Shown here: positions 1-7,655 of the stretch, in pieces
Layout of the letters: each line of letters begins with the position of its first letter
Position numbering within the stretch: the stretch's first letter is position 1
NCBI GenBank assembly: GCA_944325195.1
Contig: CALUZB010000002.1
Coordinates: 1 to 64,000 of the forward strand
DNA length: 64,000 nucleotides
Source of the DNA: an uncultured Desulfovibrionaceae bacterium
Lineage (GTDB): Bacteria > Desulfobacterota > Desulfovibrionia > Desulfovibrionales > Desulfovibrionaceae
Reading direction: 5' to 3'
Notes under the pieces: generated by a model
Database searches by the model: none
The model's input: only the letters and a program-made list of their open reading frames with translations
Told to the model about the DNA's origin: nothing
Made by a program: the position numbers and the translations under genes

Positions 1-2
1 CC

Positions 3-173
3 ACGCATGAGGCTATGGACGGCAAAACCTTCCCTCTTGACAAGGGACTGTATGATTCGGCTGTTAACCGTTATGTGCTGCCTGCCGAACTGCCGAATTG
101 CCGCTGTATTTACCGGCGCGTGCTGCCTCCCGTCGGGCACGGGAAAATCAGACCGGACGGGAACGCCCCTTGA
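3..173 (+). CDS. Phage head morphogenesis protein, MuF-like, C-terminal end only
   Basis: The first open frame in the window enters at the left edge and ends at the TGA at 171-173, giving the last 56 residues of a protein. It reads HEAMDGKTF near the start and ends with an LPNCRC motif and a short polar tail. The pairing of a H-x-x-MDG motif with a downstream P-N-C-R-C motif is the signature of the C-terminus of phage Mu gpF-like minor head proteins, which sit at the portal and act in head assembly and DNA ejection. The 5' part lies outside the window, so length and any fused toxin domain cannot be judged. A prohead-protease-like gene 3 kb downstream supports a phage head module. Confidence 0.72.
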   Translation, partial: THEAMDGKTFPLDKGLYDSAVNRYVLPAELPNCRCIYRRVLPPVGHGKIRPDGNAP

Positions 174-272
174 GCCCGAAGCGCGGCCGCGCGGGCGGCG
201 CGTTTTGCCCGACGCGCGAAACATTTGCCTTTCGGGCATGAAAAAAGCGGCTTAGTGCTGCCGCCCGACAAT

Positions 273-881
273 CTAACTCCACTCCATTGGCTTAAATATA
301 TTTGTTCCATCCGGAAGTGTGAGTGTGTCCGGCAGTTGATTGTTTTGCAGGTGACGCAATTTTATCTTAGCGGAGGAATGACAATGATTTCTAAGGTCAA
401 TAGGAGACCTGTTCATTGGCGTAATTACCTTGATGTGTTTGTGAGGGGCTAAATCCTTTAGAGCTTTTACTCCCGCTATCATGTCGCTGTCCCCGCTGAA
501 CAGCAAAATTTTATCAAAAGTATTCCTACCGGCTTCCAGGAGCATCTTGACCGCGATATTAACGTCAGTCTCTTTTTCTTCATAGGTTTTATACTGCTTG
601 TGGCAAAGGCGACATTCGCGGGAAACTTCCTTGAATTTCCCATAAATGACTTTTACACCATACAGTTCTTGCGCCCTGATAAAAAATTTATGTCGACTGG
701 CCTTTGCAGCGTCCCAAGGGATAACCGCCGTGAAGTAAAACACATCTACAAGCTGTTCTTTGCTTGGAGCTATAAAAGCCTCAGCAAGCGAGAAATAGTT
801 AAGCCATTTCAGCTTAGGACAAACTTCACGCACAGAATGATAGAGATTAAAGCCATCAATAAAAGCAGCTATACGAATCAA
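273..881 (-). CDS. NYN domain (PIN-like) putative ribonuclease
   Basis: This 202-residue protein has the NYN/LabA-type PIN-like fold motifs. An N-terminal FIDGFNLYH supplies the first acidic residue. A central EKETDVNIAVKML supplies a further acidic residue on the substrate face. LFSGDSDM follows as the next conserved acidic motif. A C-x2-C pair (CRLC) lies just before the central motif. NYN proteins are metal-dependent RNases or RNA-binding proteins of varied roles. I chose the TTG at 881 because a GGAG lies six bases upstream of it; a second TTG at 893 lacks this spacing. A terminator hairpin lies immediately upstream. The gene is opposite in direction to the flanking phage head genes, which suggests a cargo gene with its own expression. 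Family assignment is firm; substrate is unknown. Confidence 0.82.
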   Translation of the reverse strand: MIRIAAFIDGFNLYHSVREVCPKLKWLNYFSLAEAFIAPSKEQLVDVFYFTAVIPWDAAKASRHKFFIRAQELYGVKVIYGKFKEVSRECRLCHKQYKTYEEKETDVNIAVKMLLEAGRNTFDKILLFSGDSDMIAGVKALKDLAPHKHIKVITPMNRSPIDLRNHCHSSAKIKLRHLQNNQLPDTLTLPDGTNIFKPMEWS

Positions 882-895
882 TATGTTCTCCAAAT

Positions 896-925
896 AAAAA
901 AACCCGGCTCCGCAGGGAAACCGGG
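896..925 (-). terminator. Intrinsic terminator, leftward
   Basis: On the minus strand a CCCGG arm and a CCGGG arm enclose a 13-base loop, and a run of seven T follows directly. This is a standard rho-independent terminator shape. It lies just upstream of the start of the NYN gene, so it would stop leftward transcripts coming from further right. Confidence 0.65.
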
Positions 926-1202
926 GCTCTTACGACGCCAGTCAGTAAGAGGGGGTTGGTCTACAACTAACCATATTAATTCAATATGTCAATGGGGCTA
1001 TAAGAAAAATTTGGCCAGTTCCGGCAACTGACAAAAATTACAATTTTTGACATCCTCCCCCGCCTGAAGTCGAAGAGGGCGTCAAGAGCAAACTGCTATT
1101 TTAGCACTTTGCCCCCCTCAAACGTCTTCCGCCTTCTAAAATATATGCTATGATTAATTCGAATTTTAAAGAAAGGGCGTAAAACGCTGATATCAGGGAG
1201 AA
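926..1202. other. Non-coding stretch between NYN gene and small membrane protein
   Basis: No credible gene is visible here. A perfect 8-base inverted repeat (CAAAAATT/AATTTTTG) lies near 1034-1051. It is followed by TGACATCCTCCCCCGCCT, whose complement ends in GGGGGAGGATGTCA. That string resembles the ends of IS200/IS605-family elements and may be a remnant. The stretch around 1140-1165 is AT-rich. Confidence 0.45.
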
Positions 1203-1436
1203 TCAGTCGGCGGAATTACCGAGGTGAAGCGAAAGATTAAGCGGGTATTTCCCGGTCAGGCTGAAGACCAGACGAGAGGACAGGTAGATGATGCCGAAAC
1301 CGACAATTGCCAGGGGCAACGCCGCCGCCAACGCGACACAGGCCGGAATGCACAGGCATTCTTTAAACGCGGATTTGAGCCCGCGCGGTTTGAAGTTGTC
1401 CGTTGCGACATCAGACAGTCGGGTGATTTTAGCCAT
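1203..1436 (-). CDS. Small single-pass membrane protein, unknown function
   Basis: This 77-residue protein starts at an ATG with an AGAGGAG ribosome site about seven bases upstream. Residues 1-25 are polar and basic (MAKITRLSDVATDNFKPRG). Residues about 28-55 form one long hydrophobic span rich in Ala, Leu, Ile and Val, probably a single membrane helix or a short hairpin. A short polar tail follows. I do not recognise a family. It lies in the group of small opposite-strand genes within the phage head module. The strong ribosome site is the main reason to call it real. Confidence 0.5.
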   Translation of the reverse strand: MAKITRLSDVATDNFKPRGLKSAFKECLCIPACVALAAALPLAIVGFGIIYLSSRLVFSLTGKYPLNLSLHLGNSAD

Positions 1437-1468
1437 TGCCGGGCTCCTCTGAGCGACAAGGGACTTTT

Positions 1469-2053
1469 TTATTTTTGTCCACGTCTTGTTTTTATTCTCC
1501 CCGGAAGGGTGAACAGGTAAATGTATAACATTTCGGCGAAGTCAATAATATCTTCAGCGTCCTGCTTTGTATGCGGCGTTCCGTCGTGCGCGGCGTTGTT
1601 GCCGATGGTGCGTATTTCATGCGCCCAGTCCGCCAAATCCGGGGTGATGATATGACGCGCGGCCAAATCGTTGATTTTTTCTTTAAGGTTATTCCCTTTT
1701 GCCTCAAGCGATTTAACGGCGGCTTCAAGCGAGGCTCTGGCCATGATGGACGCGGCTTTGTAGTTGCCGGTGCGCAGACAGGACGCCGCCTCTTCAAAGT
1801 CATGCGCGGCTTGTTCAGGAGTGAACTCAGGCGCGCGTTCAATATCAGGCGCGGGGTAACATGTATTAAACGCTTTAAACGGGAAATTGCCGTTGTGATT
1901 AATGACATGACCTTCCAGGTAAATTCCCCTTTTGCAATTGGCGCATATCCACGCGCTGACGTAGGGGTGAAATCCGGTCTGAGCGAGAAGATAAAACGTT
2001 ATTTCGCGACTATGACAGTGCGGACATTCAGGGAGGACAGTTATGGCAACCAT
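1469..2053 (-). CDS. Zinc-ribbon DUF4145-type protein
   Basis: The likely protein is 194 residues from the ATG at 2053. An open frame continues upstream to 2293, but that extension is Cys/Ser-rich, unlike the rest, and lies over a rightward gene. The N-terminus carries a zinc-ribbon pair, CPHC and CANC, spaced about 25 residues apart. The second half is helical and contains the DUF4145 signature: a stretch like ASCLRTGNYKAASIMARAS, then IRTIGNNAAHDG and an E-D-A-x-D-I-x-D-F-A segment. DUF4145 domains occur alone or attached to restriction and other defence-related enzymes; their activity is not settled. The gene starts head-to-head with the rightward small gene at 2043 and overlaps it by 11 bases. 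Only a weak ribosome site is visible. Confidence 0.68.
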   Translation of the reverse strand: MVAITVLPECPHCHSREITFYLLAQTGFHPYVSAWICANCKRGIYLEGHVINHNGNFPFKAFNTCYPAPDIERAPEFTPEQAAHDFEEAASCLRTGNYKAASIMARASLEAAVKSLEAKGNNLKEKINDLAARHIITPDLADWAHEIRTIGNNAAHDGTPHTKQDAEDIIDFAEMLYIYLFTLPGRIKTRRGQK

Positions 2054-2261
2054 TAAAGAAGCAACCTTAATCGAAAGAGAAGCCGAACGGCAGATACAAA
2101 TTTTAATTTCCGACAAACAACCGGCGCAGGAATTGTTTGAAGCGTATATCCAAGCGCAGGACAAAGAAGCGTTCGCCGCCGGATTGATTGGAAATCTTAT
2201 CTTGCGGCACAAACAATGGCAAGCTGAAAAAAGACGGGCAAAATGCCAAGCGCGCATGTGA
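2043..2261 (+). CDS. Small helical protein, unknown function
   Basis: This 72-residue protein starts at an ATG preceded by GGGAGGA at good spacing. It is highly charged and probably all helical, with an N-terminal TIKEATLIEREAERQIQIL segment and a basic C-terminus (EKRRAKCQAR). No family is recognised. It lies opposite and head-to-head with the DUF4145 gene and precedes another small rightward gene by 17 bases, so the two may be cotranscribed. Confidence 0.5.
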   Translation: MATIKEATLIEREAERQIQILISDKQPAQELFEAYIQAQDKEAFAAGLIGNLILRHKQWQAEKRRAKCQARM

Positions 2262-2278
2262 GCAACAAAGGAGACGTC

Positions 2279-2473
2279 ATGGAAGTTGAACAAATCAGAT
2301 TATTTGTTGAATTGGTTATGCGTCAATTAAAAGGCTTCGTGCCCAAGGGGGGATATGTTCACTTCAATCTTAATACATATATTAGTGACCCTCAGCGTGT
2401 AGAGTTTGACGTTATTCAAAGCTTTGATGAGGAAGATCAACTACCACCTCAAATTGAACTCTTGAAACTGTAG
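2279..2473 (+). CDS. Small acidic protein, unknown function
   Basis: I place the start at the ATG at 2279, which follows AAAGGAG at good spacing, giving 64 residues. An in-frame ATG at 2243 lies inside the upstream gene and has no ribosome site. The protein has an N-terminal helix (MEVEQIRLFVELVMRQ), then a region of alternating hydrophobic residues (YVHFNLNTYI) and an acidic tail. No family is recognised. Confidence 0.48.
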   Translation: MEVEQIRLFVELVMRQLKGFVPKGGYVHFNLNTYISDPQRVEFDVIQSFDEEDQLPPQIELLKL

Positions 2474-2500
2474 CCGTGAGACGCTGGAATCGGAGCTTTT

Positions 2501-2872
2501 GTGGAAAACATCGAAAAAATATCCGTTACGGCGGCGTTTTTCCTGCCGGGGACGGGACTGATTCTGGACGTGCAGGAACGCGCTGATGATTTTTGGATGT
2601 TTTTAGGCGAGCTGGTGGGCTGGGGACGCTTCGCCCCGCGCACGCGACGCAAGCCGGACTGTATTATGCCAACAGCTTTTGAATTAGTTGAAGTGCGTCC
2701 GGAGTTCTGCCCAGCGCCAAGTCCAGTAGTTTACATACCAAATGCTTTGTGGCGTCGTAAGGAAGTTCTCGAAACCGAGCGATATAATGCTTTTTTTGAG
2801 GCTCTGGCAGATGTGATTGTGCAAGAAACTTCTCAACCCGTGCAAGAGTTTCGTCATGAATGCGCACGGTAA
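2501..2872 (+). CDS. Hypothetical protein, doubtful over its second half
   Basis: A GTG start with GGAG six bases upstream opens a 123-residue frame. The first 54 residues lie in otherwise empty sequence and look protein-like (a TAAFFLPGTGLILDVQERAD segment). The remainder runs opposite to the well-supported leftward gene that ends at 2664. Either the gene is real and the two converge with a 209-base overlap, or an older gene lost its own 3' end when the neighbour came in. No family is recognised. Confidence 0.28.
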   Translation: MENIEKISVTAAFFLPGTGLILDVQERADDFWMFLGELVGWGRFAPRTRRKPDCIMPTAFELVEVRPEFCPAPSPVVYIPNALWRRKEVLETERYNAFFEALADVIVQETSQPVQEFRHECAR

Positions 2873-3167
2873 CGCAGTTCAGTATGGCGGAAAGGCCGCC
2901 GTCCTCTTCAAGGAAATCAATGCCTTTGCAGGTTATGCGCATTCCGTCCCGCGAAAACTGGTATCCGCCGGAGCCGTTGGGGATGAGACCGCTGATGATG
3001 AGTTCATGCTCCTCAAGGTAGATAAGGTTGCCGATAACATCAACCCGGTCAATATTTTCACTGAAAGCTTCAAACTCTTTAAACACCGCGATGTCAGTGC
3101 GGGAGACGGGGTAGGATTTTTTCAGGAGACACAAAATAAAGCATTGCAGTTCACGGTTTATTTTCAT
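2664..3167 (-). CDS. Phage-associated protein with probable winged-helix fold
   Basis: This is a 167-residue protein. Residues 1-90 have the layout of a winged-helix domain: a helix (CFILCLLKKSYP), a second helix (IAVFKEFEAF), a strand-rich wing (LIISGLIPNGSGGYQFSRDG) and an ITCKGIDFLEEDGG segment. The C-terminal half is helical, with a short LPEPQKKHYIARFRELP segment that resembles the tails of small phage-encoded proteins of this kind. The role is not known; a DNA-binding or transcription role is inference from the fold only. The gene diverges from the large phage ORF at 3218, with 50 bases between the two starts. Confidence 0.62.
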   Translation of the reverse strand: MKINRELQCFILCLLKKSYPVSRTDIAVFKEFEAFSENIDRVDVIGNLIYLEEHELIISGLIPNGSGGYQFSRDGMRITCKGIDFLEEDGGLSAILNCVTVRIHDETLARVEKFLAQSHLPEPQKKHYIARFRELPYDATKHLVCKLLDLALGRTPDALQLIQKLLA

Positions 3168-3217
3168 GGTTCACTTCCGGCTTTCAAATTATAAAAAGTA
3201 AGGTTGAAAGTAAAGGC

Positions 3218-6200
3218 ATGATCGCCCAGCCCGCCCTATCCATCACCGAAGCGGCCGACGCCATAGTCTGGCGCACTGCCGAGAACGGCAAACATTTTCA
3301 GATTGATACCGAGACCGGCGAGATTGTTAAGGGAAACGTCGGGCAGGAGAACTTACACCGTGAGTTTCGCTCTTTGGAAGCCACAAGGCCGGATACAGAG
3401 CATTATAACGCTTTGCTGCGGGAGCATGGCGGAGACCATTTTGAAGCGGCCAAGGAATTTTTCAGAACAAGGTTACAGGGGACAACTATGAGCGCAACAG
3501 CGGAGCAAGGGCAAGTTGAAGTGCATTTCACCGGAGGGACTTGGAAGGAAATTAAACGCGGGATTAAATCCGACCCGTTAAAGGCGGAAATGGTACCGCA
3601 TATGCCGGATATTATTGCGACAGGTCAATATCGTAAAAGGGAACTGCACAAGAAGCGTGATGACGGCACAGTAGCTTTCCATGAATACCGGAAAACCGTC
3701 CAGACCAGCCAAGGGCCGCGTGAAGTGATTGTGGACGTGGCAGAGAGAGAAGGCGCAGAACCAAAGTTCAGTACTTACAACATGATCCGTGAAGGCGGGC
3801 GCGGTTACGCCGAGCGTATAAGCCACGATGAAAAAGAAAGCAGCGTTACCTTCCCGTCTTCAGGTTCGAGCCTCATCATGCAAGATAACGCCGCTTCATT
3901 TGATAATAATATAGAGCCGTTTTTTGAAGTTGTCAACCTGAGATTCGCGGATGAAGGACAACAAACAGACCGCCCACAGACGGGCGTATCAGACAAAAAC
4001 AACCACGCCATAGCCTTCGACGCGTCGCCGAGCGCGCGGCGGATTGACGAAAACGGCTACCTGCATGTGGGGGCGTCGCACATCACCAAGGCCACGGTCA
4101 ATCCCTACTACGGCCGGGAAATACCCGGCTGGGAAGAAGCCGGGCTTGAGCCGGACAAAGTATATTACGGGTTGCGCGCGCCTGAGGAGTTGGAAAAATC
4201 GCTCTCCACCTGGAGCGGTCTGCCCCTGCACATCGAGCACCACATCGACAGCGCCCGCGAGCCCCAGAAATGGACGCGGGTGGGGGCGGTGGGTACGCAG
4301 ATTGTCTGGAACCCGCCCTATGTGGACGCGCCCCTGGTGGTGTGGGACGCCTCGGCCATCGGCGGCATCGAGGACGGCTCTTATCGCGAGCTTTCCTGCG
4401 CCTACCGCTACGAGCCGGACTTCACGCCGGGCGAATTTGAGGGGCGGCCGTATGACTTTGTGATGCGCGATATCCGGGGCAACCATGTGGCCCTGGTGGA
4501 GGAAGGCCGGGCCGGGCCGGACGTGCTGGTGGCGGACGCCAATATCGTGGCCCTTGACGACCGTTGGATAACGGTTAAGCCCAACGGCCCGAACAATACC
4601 GGCCGTCCCGCGTTGATTGATGAAAACGGGAATGTCAAGGCAGGCATGGGCGGTAAATTTAACGGGCGCAATATCGACGATATCCCGCGCGGTAAGAACC
4701 CGCACCCTCAAACGGAAGAGAAGTATCAGGCCAGACAGAAACGCCTGGAGGGCAAGTCTTCTGAGGCCACCGTCAAGCAGACGTCCGCTCAACCCGCCAA
4801 AAAATTTGAGGGCGTCCCCCGTCCCGTGTCGGAAGTGGAAAAAGATATCAAAAAAACTGAAAAAGAACTGGCTGATCACGAAAGGGATATCAGATTATCG
4901 GAAAGCAATCTCCAAAGATATGAAAGTCAGCTTGGAAATCCGGCGCTATATGGGAACCAGGCACCGTCCATACGGAAGGACGCGGAATTTGAGCGCTCCC
5001 GCCTTGAAAAAAGTTCAAAGAAACGGGACGAGCTGACCGCGAAACTGGAGAAGCTTAATTCTGAACGGGAAGCGGCCAATGCGACAGGTTCCGAAGTGAA
5101 GAATTCCGGGCAAAATCCGGTTAAACCAACCGCCCCGGAATGGTGGACGGATATGAAATCCAATTCCGGAGACGGATACTGGAACGGGAAATTCTACAGC
5201 GGCAACCGGGTTTATGTGGGTGGAAAGGAGCGCAAGCTCTCCGACGCGCAGCGCAAAGAGCTGGAAACATATACGTCGGAACTCAAGAAATACAAAGTGC
5301 AGGCTCAGGCTGCCGAATCGGAAAGACGCAACACCGCCGGGAATACTTATCTCAACGTGCCTTACGAAAATCGGGAGCTTGCGAAAAGCTTAGGCGCGAA
5401 GTGGAACCCGGAGCGCAAGCAGTGGTACATGCCGGAGGGGGTGCAAGTACCGACTGAGCTGAAAAGGTATTCCCGGTCACGGGAATGGCATGCCGCTGCT
5501 GTACGGGAGAAAGCCCGGATTGAGAACATGAAAAAAGAGGCGGCCGAGACGGAAAAAGACCTTGAGGCTCTGCGGCGGCGGGGGCTCGACACTGCAGTCT
5601 CGACACAAAGACTGCAAAGGCTCAGAGGGGAAATTCTGCGGGCTTCCGCCAACCTTGAAAGCTCCCTGACAAAAGCGGGGATGAGCTATGAGGAAGTCGG
5701 AAAAGGGCAAGACAGTTCTTTAGCCAAAGACGGCGAAAGAATTAATCCAATAAAAAAAGGTGGAATTATGGGAAAATTAAAAAAGTGGTTCCGGGGCGCG
5801 CTGGACGACGACCCGGGGGTTGAACAGCGGGAAGTGGATTTGGCGCAGGCGATCATCGACCTGCACCGGCTTGACCCGGTGAGCGGCGAAATTGTGGACG
5901 TCACTGAGGATGAGGACAAAAACGCCGCAATCAGAAAACTCATTGACGAGCTTGCGGGCAAGCTGGGGCCGGAGGATACCAAACGTCTGACCGACGCCCT
6001 GACCGACCTGGCCTACAGCAAGGCCACCGGCGACGAGGAACCGGACGGGAGCGCGTCCCCCGGCCTGGATGCGGATAACGACGAGCAGAAGAATTTCGCC
6101 GAAGGCGTGGAGTACGGCGAGAAGCTGGAGCGCACTCCGGAAGAGCGGGAAAAACTCGACCGGGAGCACGAGAGCGAGGGCATGAAGCGCGCCATGGACG

Positions 6201-6829
6201 CCTGCGGTCTGGATTCGGAAGACCCCAATGAGGCCCGTGCTTTTGCGGAAGGCGTGAAGTACGGCGAGGAAAAGGGCAAGGCCGCCGCGGATAAGCCGGT
6301 GGAAGACGAAGAACCGGCCGCCGCGACCCGTCCGGCCGAGGACCGGGCTTTGCGCCGTGGCGCCCGCTCCGGACGCGGGTTCGGGGCAATGGATGCGGCG
6401 GCTTTGCGCGCGGCCGCCACTGCCGACGCGGTGGAAAATATCCGGGCCGTGACCATTGCCGCTCAGCAGGTGCGGCCGTTAATCGGTGAAGTCAATCCCC
6501 TGGCCTTTGACTCCGCCCGGGAACTTTACCGCTACGCGCTCAAGGAGTTGGGGCGCAACCCGGCCCGCTACGACCCCCGCGCCTGGGGCGCAATGATTGA
6601 GGTTATGGCGCAAGAGCGCGCGAACGCGTCCCTCGGCGGCGCGGGCGGGCAGGTGTATGTGGACAAGACCAACGGTAAAATTCTGGCGGCGGGGCTGAAG
6701 GAGAACAGGAATGAACGGCGCCTTGACGCAGGGGAAAAATTATTCAAAGTGTATTTATATAAAAGAGGGGAGAGCATGGAATTCATCTGGGATATGCGGA
6801 AAGCTGCCACCTCTGAGAGGAGAAAATAA
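3218..6829 (+). CDS. Fused phage protein: nuclease-toxin-like domain, DUF2213 protease-like domain, DUF5710 and scaffold-like tail
   Basis: This 1203-residue frame has several parts. Residues 1-60 resemble the glycine-poor linker near MuF C-termini (HFQIDTETGEIVKG). Residues about 95-200 resemble the phage Barnase/EndoU/ColicinE5/RelE-like nuclease domains found on MuF proteins (MPDIIATGQY, FHEYRKTV). Residues about 260-445 are a DUF2213 domain, related to phage prohead proteases, with HIEHH, YRELSCAYRYE and RGNHVALVEEGRAGPDV. Then comes a long charged coiled coil (about 535-620), a DUF5710 domain near 710-740 (TYLNVPYENRELAKSLGAKW), more coiled coil, and from about 848 an acidic scaffold-like region opening MGKLKKWF. 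DUF2213 proteins usually run straight into such a tail, so the middle looks inserted. The last 17 codons are a BrnT remnant with its own ribosome site. The ribosome site at 3218 is weak. The domain names are from recall. Confidence 0.75.
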   Translation: MIAQPALSITEAADAIVWRTAENGKHFQIDTETGEIVKGNVGQENLHREFRSLEATRPDTEHYNALLREHGGDHFEAAKEFFRTRLQGTTMSATAEQGQVEVHFTGGTWKEIKRGIKSDPLKAEMVPHMPDIIATGQYRKRELHKKRDDGTVAFHEYRKTVQTSQGPREVIVDVAEREGAEPKFSTYNMIREGGRGYAERISHDEKESSVTFPSSGSSLIMQDNAASFDNNIEPFFEVVNLRFADEGQQTDRPQTGVSDKNNHAIAFDASPSARRIDENGYLHVGASHITKATVNPYYGREIPGWEEAGLEPDKVYYGLRAPEELEKSLSTWSGLPLHIEHHIDSAREPQKWTRVGAVGTQIVWNPPYVDAPLVVWDASAIGGIEDGSYRELSCAYRYEPDFTPGEFEGRPYDFVMRDIRGNHVALVEEGRAGPDVLVADANIVALDDRWITVKPNGPNNTGRPALIDENGNVKAGMGGKFNGRNIDDIPRGKNPHPQTEEKYQARQKRLEGKSSEATVKQTSAQPAKKFEGVPRPVSEVEKDIKKTEKELADHERDIRLSESNLQRYESQLGNPALYGNQAPSIRKDAEFERSRLEKSSKKRDELTAKLEKLNSEREAANATGSEVKNSGQNPVKPTAPEWWTDMKSNSGDGYWNGKFYSGNRVYVGGKERKLSDAQRKELETYTSELKKYKVQAQAAESERRNTAGNTYLNVPYENRELAKSLGAKWNPERKQWYMPEGVQVPTELKRYSRSREWHAAAVREKARIENMKKEAAETEKDLEALRRRGLDTAVSTQRLQRLRGEILRASANLESSLTKAGMSYEEVGKGQDSSLAKDGERINPIKKGGIMGKLKKWFRGALDDDPGVEQREVDLAQAIIDLHRLDPVSGEIVDVTEDEDKNAAIRKLIDELAGKLGPEDTKRLTDALTDLAYSKATGDEEPDGSASPGLDADNDEQKNFAEGVEYGEKLERTPEEREKLDREHESEGMKRAMDACGLDSEDPNEARAFAEGVKYGEEKGKAAADKPVEDEEPAAATRPAEDRALRRGARSGRGFGAMDAAALRAAATADAVENIRAVTIAAQQVRPLIGEVNPLAFDSARELYRYALKELGRNPARYDPRAWGAMIEVMAQERANASLGGAGGQVYVDKTNGKILAAGLKENRNERRLDAGEKLFKVYLYKRGESMEFIWDMRKAATSERRK
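6776..6829 (+). pseudogene. brnT toxin remnant, fused in frame to the end of the phage ORF
   Basis: An ATG at 6776 follows GAGGGGAG at good spacing and opens a 17-residue peptide, MEFIWDMRKAATSERRK. The first residues match the typical start of BrnT RNase toxins (MxFxWDxxKA). The end (RKAATSERR) resembles the BrnT C-terminal ARKATxxER segment, so the middle of the gene seems to be deleted. The gene just downstream is a BrnA-type antitoxin, the normal partner in this order. The upstream phage ORF reads through this remnant in the same frame and shares its stop codon. Confidence 0.55.
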
Positions 6830-7297: not shown

Positions 7298-7619
7298 CTA
7301 TTGGTAGATACCGCTTCGGACTCCGGTTAGTGTTGTTTCACACCTCTGATGCCGGCAGTTGTACTTGCTCTTGCAATTAGTGCTTAACCCTCACAGCGTG
7401 CGGCTATTCATCCAGAACTGTTTAAATCAGGAAAGCAATTTTGTCTAAGTGGTTGGTTGTGCAGATTCATCATCAACATCAGAGGGGTGAAGTTTCTCCT
7501 TACTTTGGCAGGGGGGTGACCACCAACAGCATTACCCTCGCGTCCGGAGCTTGTGACGTACTTTTGTCAGCTTCGGTACGTTATTTGCTCTCTCTAGTTT
7601 ATACTTTTGTTGGGACAAT
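7298..7619. other. Long untranslated leader of the polysaccharide arm
   Basis: This stretch has one open frame (7441-7674, 77 codons) with no clear ribosome site and no protein-like pattern, so I treat the region as leader. I searched for a JUMPstart/ops element (GGCGGTAGCGTG) and did not find one. Confidence 0.4.
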
Positions 7620-7655
7620 AAAGCAGGCGTGGCAGAAAATGCCATGCCTGCTTTT
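7620..7655 (+). terminator. Terminator-like hairpin in the leader
   Basis: Arms at 7620-7634 and 7640-7654 pair over 15 bases with one G-T pair and a five-base loop, followed by TGTT. The hairpin stands 56 bases before the PseC-like start. It may end the upstream transcript or act as an attenuator that needs an antiterminator for readthrough. The T run is short, so termination may be partial. Confidence 0.6.

Follow-up and report, generated by a model that had tools for sequence, protein, structure and literature searches.

The window analysed here, a stretch of 64,000 nucleotides from an uncultured Desulfovibrionaceae bacterium (bases 1-64000 of contig C2, the first base being the contig end), raises the question of what seven small genes at positions 273-3167 are doing between two phage head genes, one for a MuF-like protein and one for a head maturation protease. 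An earlier note had treated them as a possible cargo system in a phage head module. One of the genes, coding for an NYN nuclease, was found to be linked in many genomes to a conserved structured RNA that the earlier note had missed at 896-960 (-); both this linkage and the structure of the RNA are practically beyond doubt. The pair is read as a type III-like module of RNA antitoxin and RNase toxin that the prophage carries as cargo, in which the putative toxin is an unrelated protein (NYN) and the RNA is new. To this reading we give slightly more than an even chance. The three elements concerned are the following:

273-881, minus strand: NYN nuclease of the HEC-09 type; probable start TTG 881 (MIRIAAFIDGFN...), open reading frame (ORF) open to TTG 893.
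896-960, minus strand: structured small RNA of about 65 nt, directly upstream of the NYN gene (model R1, E 7e-8).
964-992, minus strand: possible promoter of the RNA, with TTGACA (992-987), a spacing of 17 nt and a weak -10 element TAGTTG (969-964), read from the sequence.

The ORF at 273-893 (-) matched the Pfam family NYN with an E-value of 5e-13, in agreement with the label given to it earlier; NYN was the only family reported by the Pfam search, and Abi_2 was not found. The protein was also matched over its full length (residues 7-206 to profile positions 3-203 of 203, E 2.8e-54) by the PADLOC model HEC-09 (Hma-embedded candidate 9, PDLC04163), a candidate defence model, which bears out the suggestion that it comes from a defence-type family. 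The model differs from the present case in describing a protein without an RNA partner, and no Hma gene was recognised in the island or its flanks, so this HEC-09 copy lies outside any Hma locus. The putative active-site residues D13, D110, D135 and D137 and the CxxC motif (C94/C97) are intact in the window protein and invariant across 62 sequences. Its structure was predicted with a pLDDT of 97. The best match among solved folds was VPA0982 (PDB 2qip), an NYN-domain protein of unknown function (Foldseek E 7e-9, TM 0.60/0.74; profile match E 4e-5), which shares the fold but only 17% identity. The fold search with the predicted model returned no ToxN.

In the 5' flanks of NYN relatives, a two-hairpin leader was shared by genomes of the order and then recurred in most of 80 NYN genome loci, which were taken from a species-level genome collection (compared loci carry L-numbers below). 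The RNA consists of 5' AACCCC, hairpin 1, a C, hairpin 2, which is at the same time the intrinsic terminator, and a U tract. In the window, the terminator at 925-903 (-) has a 9-bp stem followed by TTTTTTT and stands directly before the NYN start, as it does in sense-type relatives. Folded alone, the window RNA adopts essentially the family structure, with a minimum free energy of -25.3 kcal/mol and a z-score of -3.0. The TTGACA box has the same position in relatives such as L064 and L065; a consensus promoter scan did not report the candidate promoter at 964-992.

An alignment of mixed RNA types with MAFFT gave no consensus structure, and 11 RNAs of equal layout were modelled instead. The resulting covariance model R1 was built from other phyla and contained no sequence from the genome of the window or from its searched relatives. 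Among 35 aligned sequences, 93% of the cells were paired versus 64% in shuffles (0 of 500 shuffles reached the observed values), in an alignment fitted to the model, which favours structure; the own fold of the window RNA agrees. Changes on both sides were present in 17 of 18 pairs, hairpin 1 covaried as strongly as the terminator hairpin, and paired cells dropped to 27-51% when the structure was slid along the alignment. Searches against Rfam gave no match in the window up to an E-value of 1 and none at the RNA at gathering score in 10 relatives; for L003-L009 only matches far below the gathering scores were obtained.

Linkage to the NYN gene was evaluated with the same model. Over 691 kb, R1 had 35 hits at E<=0.05, including the 11 training sequences, and every one lay beside an NYN gene. 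The window RNA, which was outside the training set, was found at E 7e-8 and is the single match in its whole genome. When R1 was applied to 80 unseen NYN loci on viral contigs, obtained by an alignment-based search after a close-relative scan there had found none, 21 of the 22 matches at E<=0.5 were located directly upstream of NYN. With a wider model, R3, 62 of the 80 genome loci had the RNA no more than 450 nt from NYN (44 sense, 18 divergent), and several of the remaining 18 have variant RNA forms recognisable by eye. No RNA match was obtained at the LabA-type NYN loci L010-L013. The pairing of RNA and NYN recurs in at least 24 bacterial phyla, and the rows of the NYN tree cover 23 or more named phyla. 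A second RNA-like match is present at L110:3262-3331 (-), about 650 nt from the NYN-linked copy.

Number and placement of the RNA vary among the relatives. Three units of about 50 nt precede the NYN gene in tandem, the last being the terminator, at L117, L126, L170, L172, L177, L178 and L179; the three two-hairpin units fold as six hairpins at L170, L172 and L177, and three units were recognised by inspection at the other four loci. In the Mycobacterium prophage prophiGD43A-1 (L020:3897-3969, -), a variant RNA lies downstream of NYN and convergent with it; the model match is weak (E 0.7) and the RNA is clear by eye. The NYN tree shows at least four switches in the orientation of the RNA. Because of these switches and of the divergent and convergent placements, the RNA most likely acts in trans. 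Orphan RNAs without NYN were found at L164:1501-1568 (-) and L166:581-646 (-), flanked by helicase- and methylase-like genes in Hma-type loci; they fit an antitoxin that is harmless alone.

The same data were used to weigh two other functions of the RNA. If it were a cofactor or guide that NYN requires for activity or targeting, forming an RNA-protein effector and not an inhibited toxin, the tight linkage, the strong conservation of structure, the conserved C-rich unpaired segments and hairpin-2 loops and the association independent of orientation would all be accounted for. The terminator between RNA and NYN gene and the tandem units, however, suit the dosage control of a toxin, orphan copies are explained more easily by an inhibitor, and a variable guide segment was not seen; this function is considered unlikely, if the strongest competitor. 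Quite improbable is that the RNA serves only as a cis-acting attenuator or leader, whose terminator sets NYN expression, with feedback of the nuclease on its own leader and no separate function of the RNA. Such a role would agree with the window and the 44 loci in which the RNA is directly upstream, in sense and ending in a terminator, but it leaves unexplained the opposite-strand RNAs of 18 loci, the downstream convergent RNA of the mycobacterial prophage, the orphan copies, and the covariation of hairpin 1, which is as strong as that of the terminator.

The preferred reading, an RNA antitoxin with an NYN toxin, was compared with known systems. Type III toxin-antitoxin systems are defined by a promoter followed by RNA repeats, a Rho-independent terminator and an endoribonuclease gene, in this order (PMC5086642). 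As in ToxIN, CptIN and TenpIN, a conserved structured RNA and a Rho-independent terminator are followed by a nuclease gene, and tandem RNA units occur in several relatives, whereas the module of the window has one unit. The terminator, together with the tandem units of the relatives, gives the gene order that defines type III. Differences are that the second hairpin is here the terminator itself, and that the RNA also occurs divergent, convergent or orphan. A further system for comparison is AbiF with RCd22 in a Clostridioides difficile prophage, where a structured RNA neutralises a toxic protein in cis and in trans (PMC12373285); because it does so, a protein other than ToxN can be neutralised by RNA. 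Both cases combine a prophage-borne protein with a conserved structured RNA, but AbiF belongs to Abi_2 and is paired with abiF RNA motifs, and here an NYN protein goes with an RNA absent from Rfam.

The module may work as follows. The functional core of the island would be the RNA (960-896, -) with its own terminator, followed by the NYN ribonuclease gene (881-273, -). From the promoter, mainly the short RNA would be made; now and then transcription would continue beyond the terminator and yield the nuclease mRNA. The RNA would bind the NYN nuclease and hold it inactive. Upon shut-off of transcription, for example by an infecting phage, the short-lived RNA would be lost, and the freed nuclease would cut RNA, so that growth or phage production stops. 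Within the prophage, the module could serve as addiction cargo, as defence cargo or as both. RNA transcription, RNA binding, neutralisation, RNase toxicity, induction and the anti-phage effect are steps that we infer.

Several points weigh against this reading. The NYN fold is unrelated to ToxN; because this toxin-family feature was tested and found to differ, the module is not classed as a member of ToxIN, CptIN or TenpIN. ToxI and CptI form pseudoknots, whereas the RNA described here forms two nested hairpins, which explain the covariation in models restricted to nested pairs. In the window itself the RNA unit is single and the -10 element weak. The later models took training loci from the very set that they searched, so their E-values on it are not independent. 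A neighbour scan, whose counts are a lower bound because some ORFs may be shadow frames, placed defence genes (HmaA/B, type I specificity, Drm, Dpd, mads) beside only some of the NYN relatives; at L064, NYN is flanked by helicase- and methylase-like genes. In the one paper found on the subject, HEC-09 was correlated with phage susceptibility in Pseudomonas (PMC12447246). Because of this correlation an anti-phage role of the HEC-09 module is no more than possible, and addiction or prophage stability is an equally fair reading.

The place of the module in the phage genome was determined from the two flanking genes:

1-173, plus strand: C-terminal end of a MuF-like head protein (last 56 residues, bases 3-173; phrog_324 E 2e-7, Pfam Phage_Mu_F E 0.016).
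3218-6829, plus strand: LPD3-DUF2213 head maturation protease fusion with further domains, right flank of the island (DUF2213 E 2e-44, LPD3 E 4e-12; phrog_2229 head maturation protease E 1e-95).

The MuF end aligns with the MuF ends of L055, L056 and L057. In the window, 3,044 nt (174-3217) lie between the MuF stop and the protease start. For comparison, relatives of the same family and viral contigs were used. A gap of 1 nt separates the two genes in L056 and L057, and one of 3 nt in L055; at L068, L071, L072 and L074 the two genes overlap or are a few nt apart (within about 7 nt), and at L070 about 49 nt separate them, while L069 and L075 have other architectures. This near-abutment in most relatives confirms that the genes are unusually placed, as the earlier note had stated, and that an accessory island was inserted between the MuF and protease genes. 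L057 is considered an empty site for the island because the LPD3-protease follows there directly after MuF, in the order of the window. An insertion inside the MuF gene, considered because LPD3 lies within other head genes in relatives, was rejected in view of the succession of MuF stop, 1 nt and LPD3-protease start in L057. The LPD3 module itself varies in position among the head genes of related phages (portal end, inside the protease, protease start; L055:9803-10510, L056:11196-11963, L057:7526-6978, window 3218-3960). The island genes are mostly higher in A+T than the head genes: the G+C content is 42% for NYN and 40% for the 76-aa ORF, but 58-64% at the MuF end and in the protease domain.

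The phage part stops near 6.95 kb, and chromosomal genes of polysaccharide type start at about 7.69 kb. Neither a capsid nor a tail gene was found 3' of the protease in the window. A search of the genome's own assembly, run without a positive control, gave no portal relative. The right end of the phage fragment (6770-6955) holds remains resembling a BrnT/BrnA toxin-antitoxin system, in which BrnT is apparently internally deleted; the protease is followed by a short BrnT-like piece and then a 40-codon piece with a weak match to BrnA (E 0.004, below the cut-off). The phage head module of the earlier note is thus upheld by its MuF and protease flanks but amounts only to part of a prophage, or to one truncated at the contig end; since the window begins at base 1 of the contig, the remainder of the head module is out of view.

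The other genes of the island are as follows:

1203-1436, minus strand: hydrophobic small protein of 77 amino acids (aa), probably membrane-located (ORF; hydrophobic stretch by inspection).
1469-2053, minus strand: zinc-ribbon and DUF4145 (HEPN-like) protein (Pfam DUF4145 E 9e-24, HEPN E 4e-5; phrog_1305 E 1e-40).
2043-2261, plus strand: 72-aa protein, divergent from the DUF4145 gene with overlapping starts (tblastn, 44% identity to L056:1845-1979).
2243-2473, plus strand: 76-aa ORF without relatives found.
2501-2872, plus strand: small gene convergent with the phrog_3983 gene and overlapping its 3' end; the conserved part is about 2501-2705.
2664-3167, minus strand: phrog_3983 protein, possibly with a winged helix (phrog_3983 E 2e-35).

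All ORFs described in the earlier note exist, and its DUF4145 label was correct. Its winged-helix-like protein is a real ORF of the phrog_3983 family, but the sole basis for the fold label is a sub-threshold YjcQ match (E 0.008). A correction concerns the small ORF at 2501-2872 (+), which is a conserved gene running towards phrog_3983. Its counterparts in Edwardsiella phage GF-2 and Escherichia phage PhiR49_2 are ORFs without annotation, located 3' of phrog_3983 (L015, about 7385-7530; L016, about 7505-7640); a weaker likeness was noted in L014, L017 and L018. The two genes possibly form a cassette. Elsewhere phrog_3983 is a lone gene of varying position in phages of Edwardsiella, Escherichia, Pseudomonas, Acinetobacter and Halomonas. 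The divergent pair of DUF4145 and the 72-aa protein (window 1469-2261) is also present in a related phage (L056:1202-2003), in the early region, about 9 kb from its head protease and far from NYN; the 72-aa ORF had no match among phage records. For the 77-aa ORF neither a family match nor relatives were found. A hairpin at window 1049-1083 (GACATCCTCCCCCGCC...GGGCGTC) looks like the ends of IS200/IS605 elements; L059:7395-7421 holds a near-copy of 27 bp, and a similar hairpin adjoins the NYN module in L126.

The island is an accretion of independent cassettes and not one conserved system: NYN (-), the 77-aa ORF (-), the DUF4145/72-aa divergent pair, the 76-aa ORF and the convergent pair of phrog_3983 and the small ORF. 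The cassettes other than NYN would share the insertion site by chance. That the whole is a decaying pile of morons in a prophage remnant, now functionless while the NYN-RNA family is functional elsewhere, is very improbable. It is true that the phage part closes with a broken BrnT/BrnA-like remnant and has no capsid or tail genes before its end, that the assembly yielded no portal relative and that the island carries the IS605-like hairpin relic; but the ORFs of NYN, DUF4145 and phrog_3983 are intact, the window RNA takes on the family structure and the active-site pattern of NYN is complete. That all seven genes form one cargo system, for example for superinfection exclusion, is hardly credible, as their contiguity in one insertion and the defence-like character of DUF4145 and NYN are opposed by mixed strands, by the occurrence of each cassette alone elsewhere and by the absence of any other island protein beside NYN in the 80 NYN genome loci. 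The proposed cargo thus survives as an inserted accessory island whose parts occur separately in relatives, and what is conserved is the NYN-RNA module and not the set (0 co-occurrence in 80 NYN loci); the outcome that the earlier note had named as refuting, a lack of conservation, therefore holds for the set but not for the NYN module, and no direct evidence of superinfection exclusion was found.

Whether HEC-09 NYN and the two-hairpin RNA constitute a new phylum-spanning class of RNA-antitoxin/RNase-toxin systems, of an origin independent of ToxN-type type III and spread by phages and defence islands, is judged to be evenly balanced. The open-access PMC literature yielded no paper that links NYN with an RNA antitoxin, and priority cannot be claimed. 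If the proposal is true, RNA-controlled toxins extend beyond the ToxN fold. The RNA class, with its occurrence in at least 24 phyla, its strong covariation and no Rfam entry, would give the candidate defence gene HEC-09 its missing partner. Assays of HEC-09 limited to the protein may have overlooked the RNA, and in a foreign host that lacks this RNA the expressed protein may be toxic or inactive.

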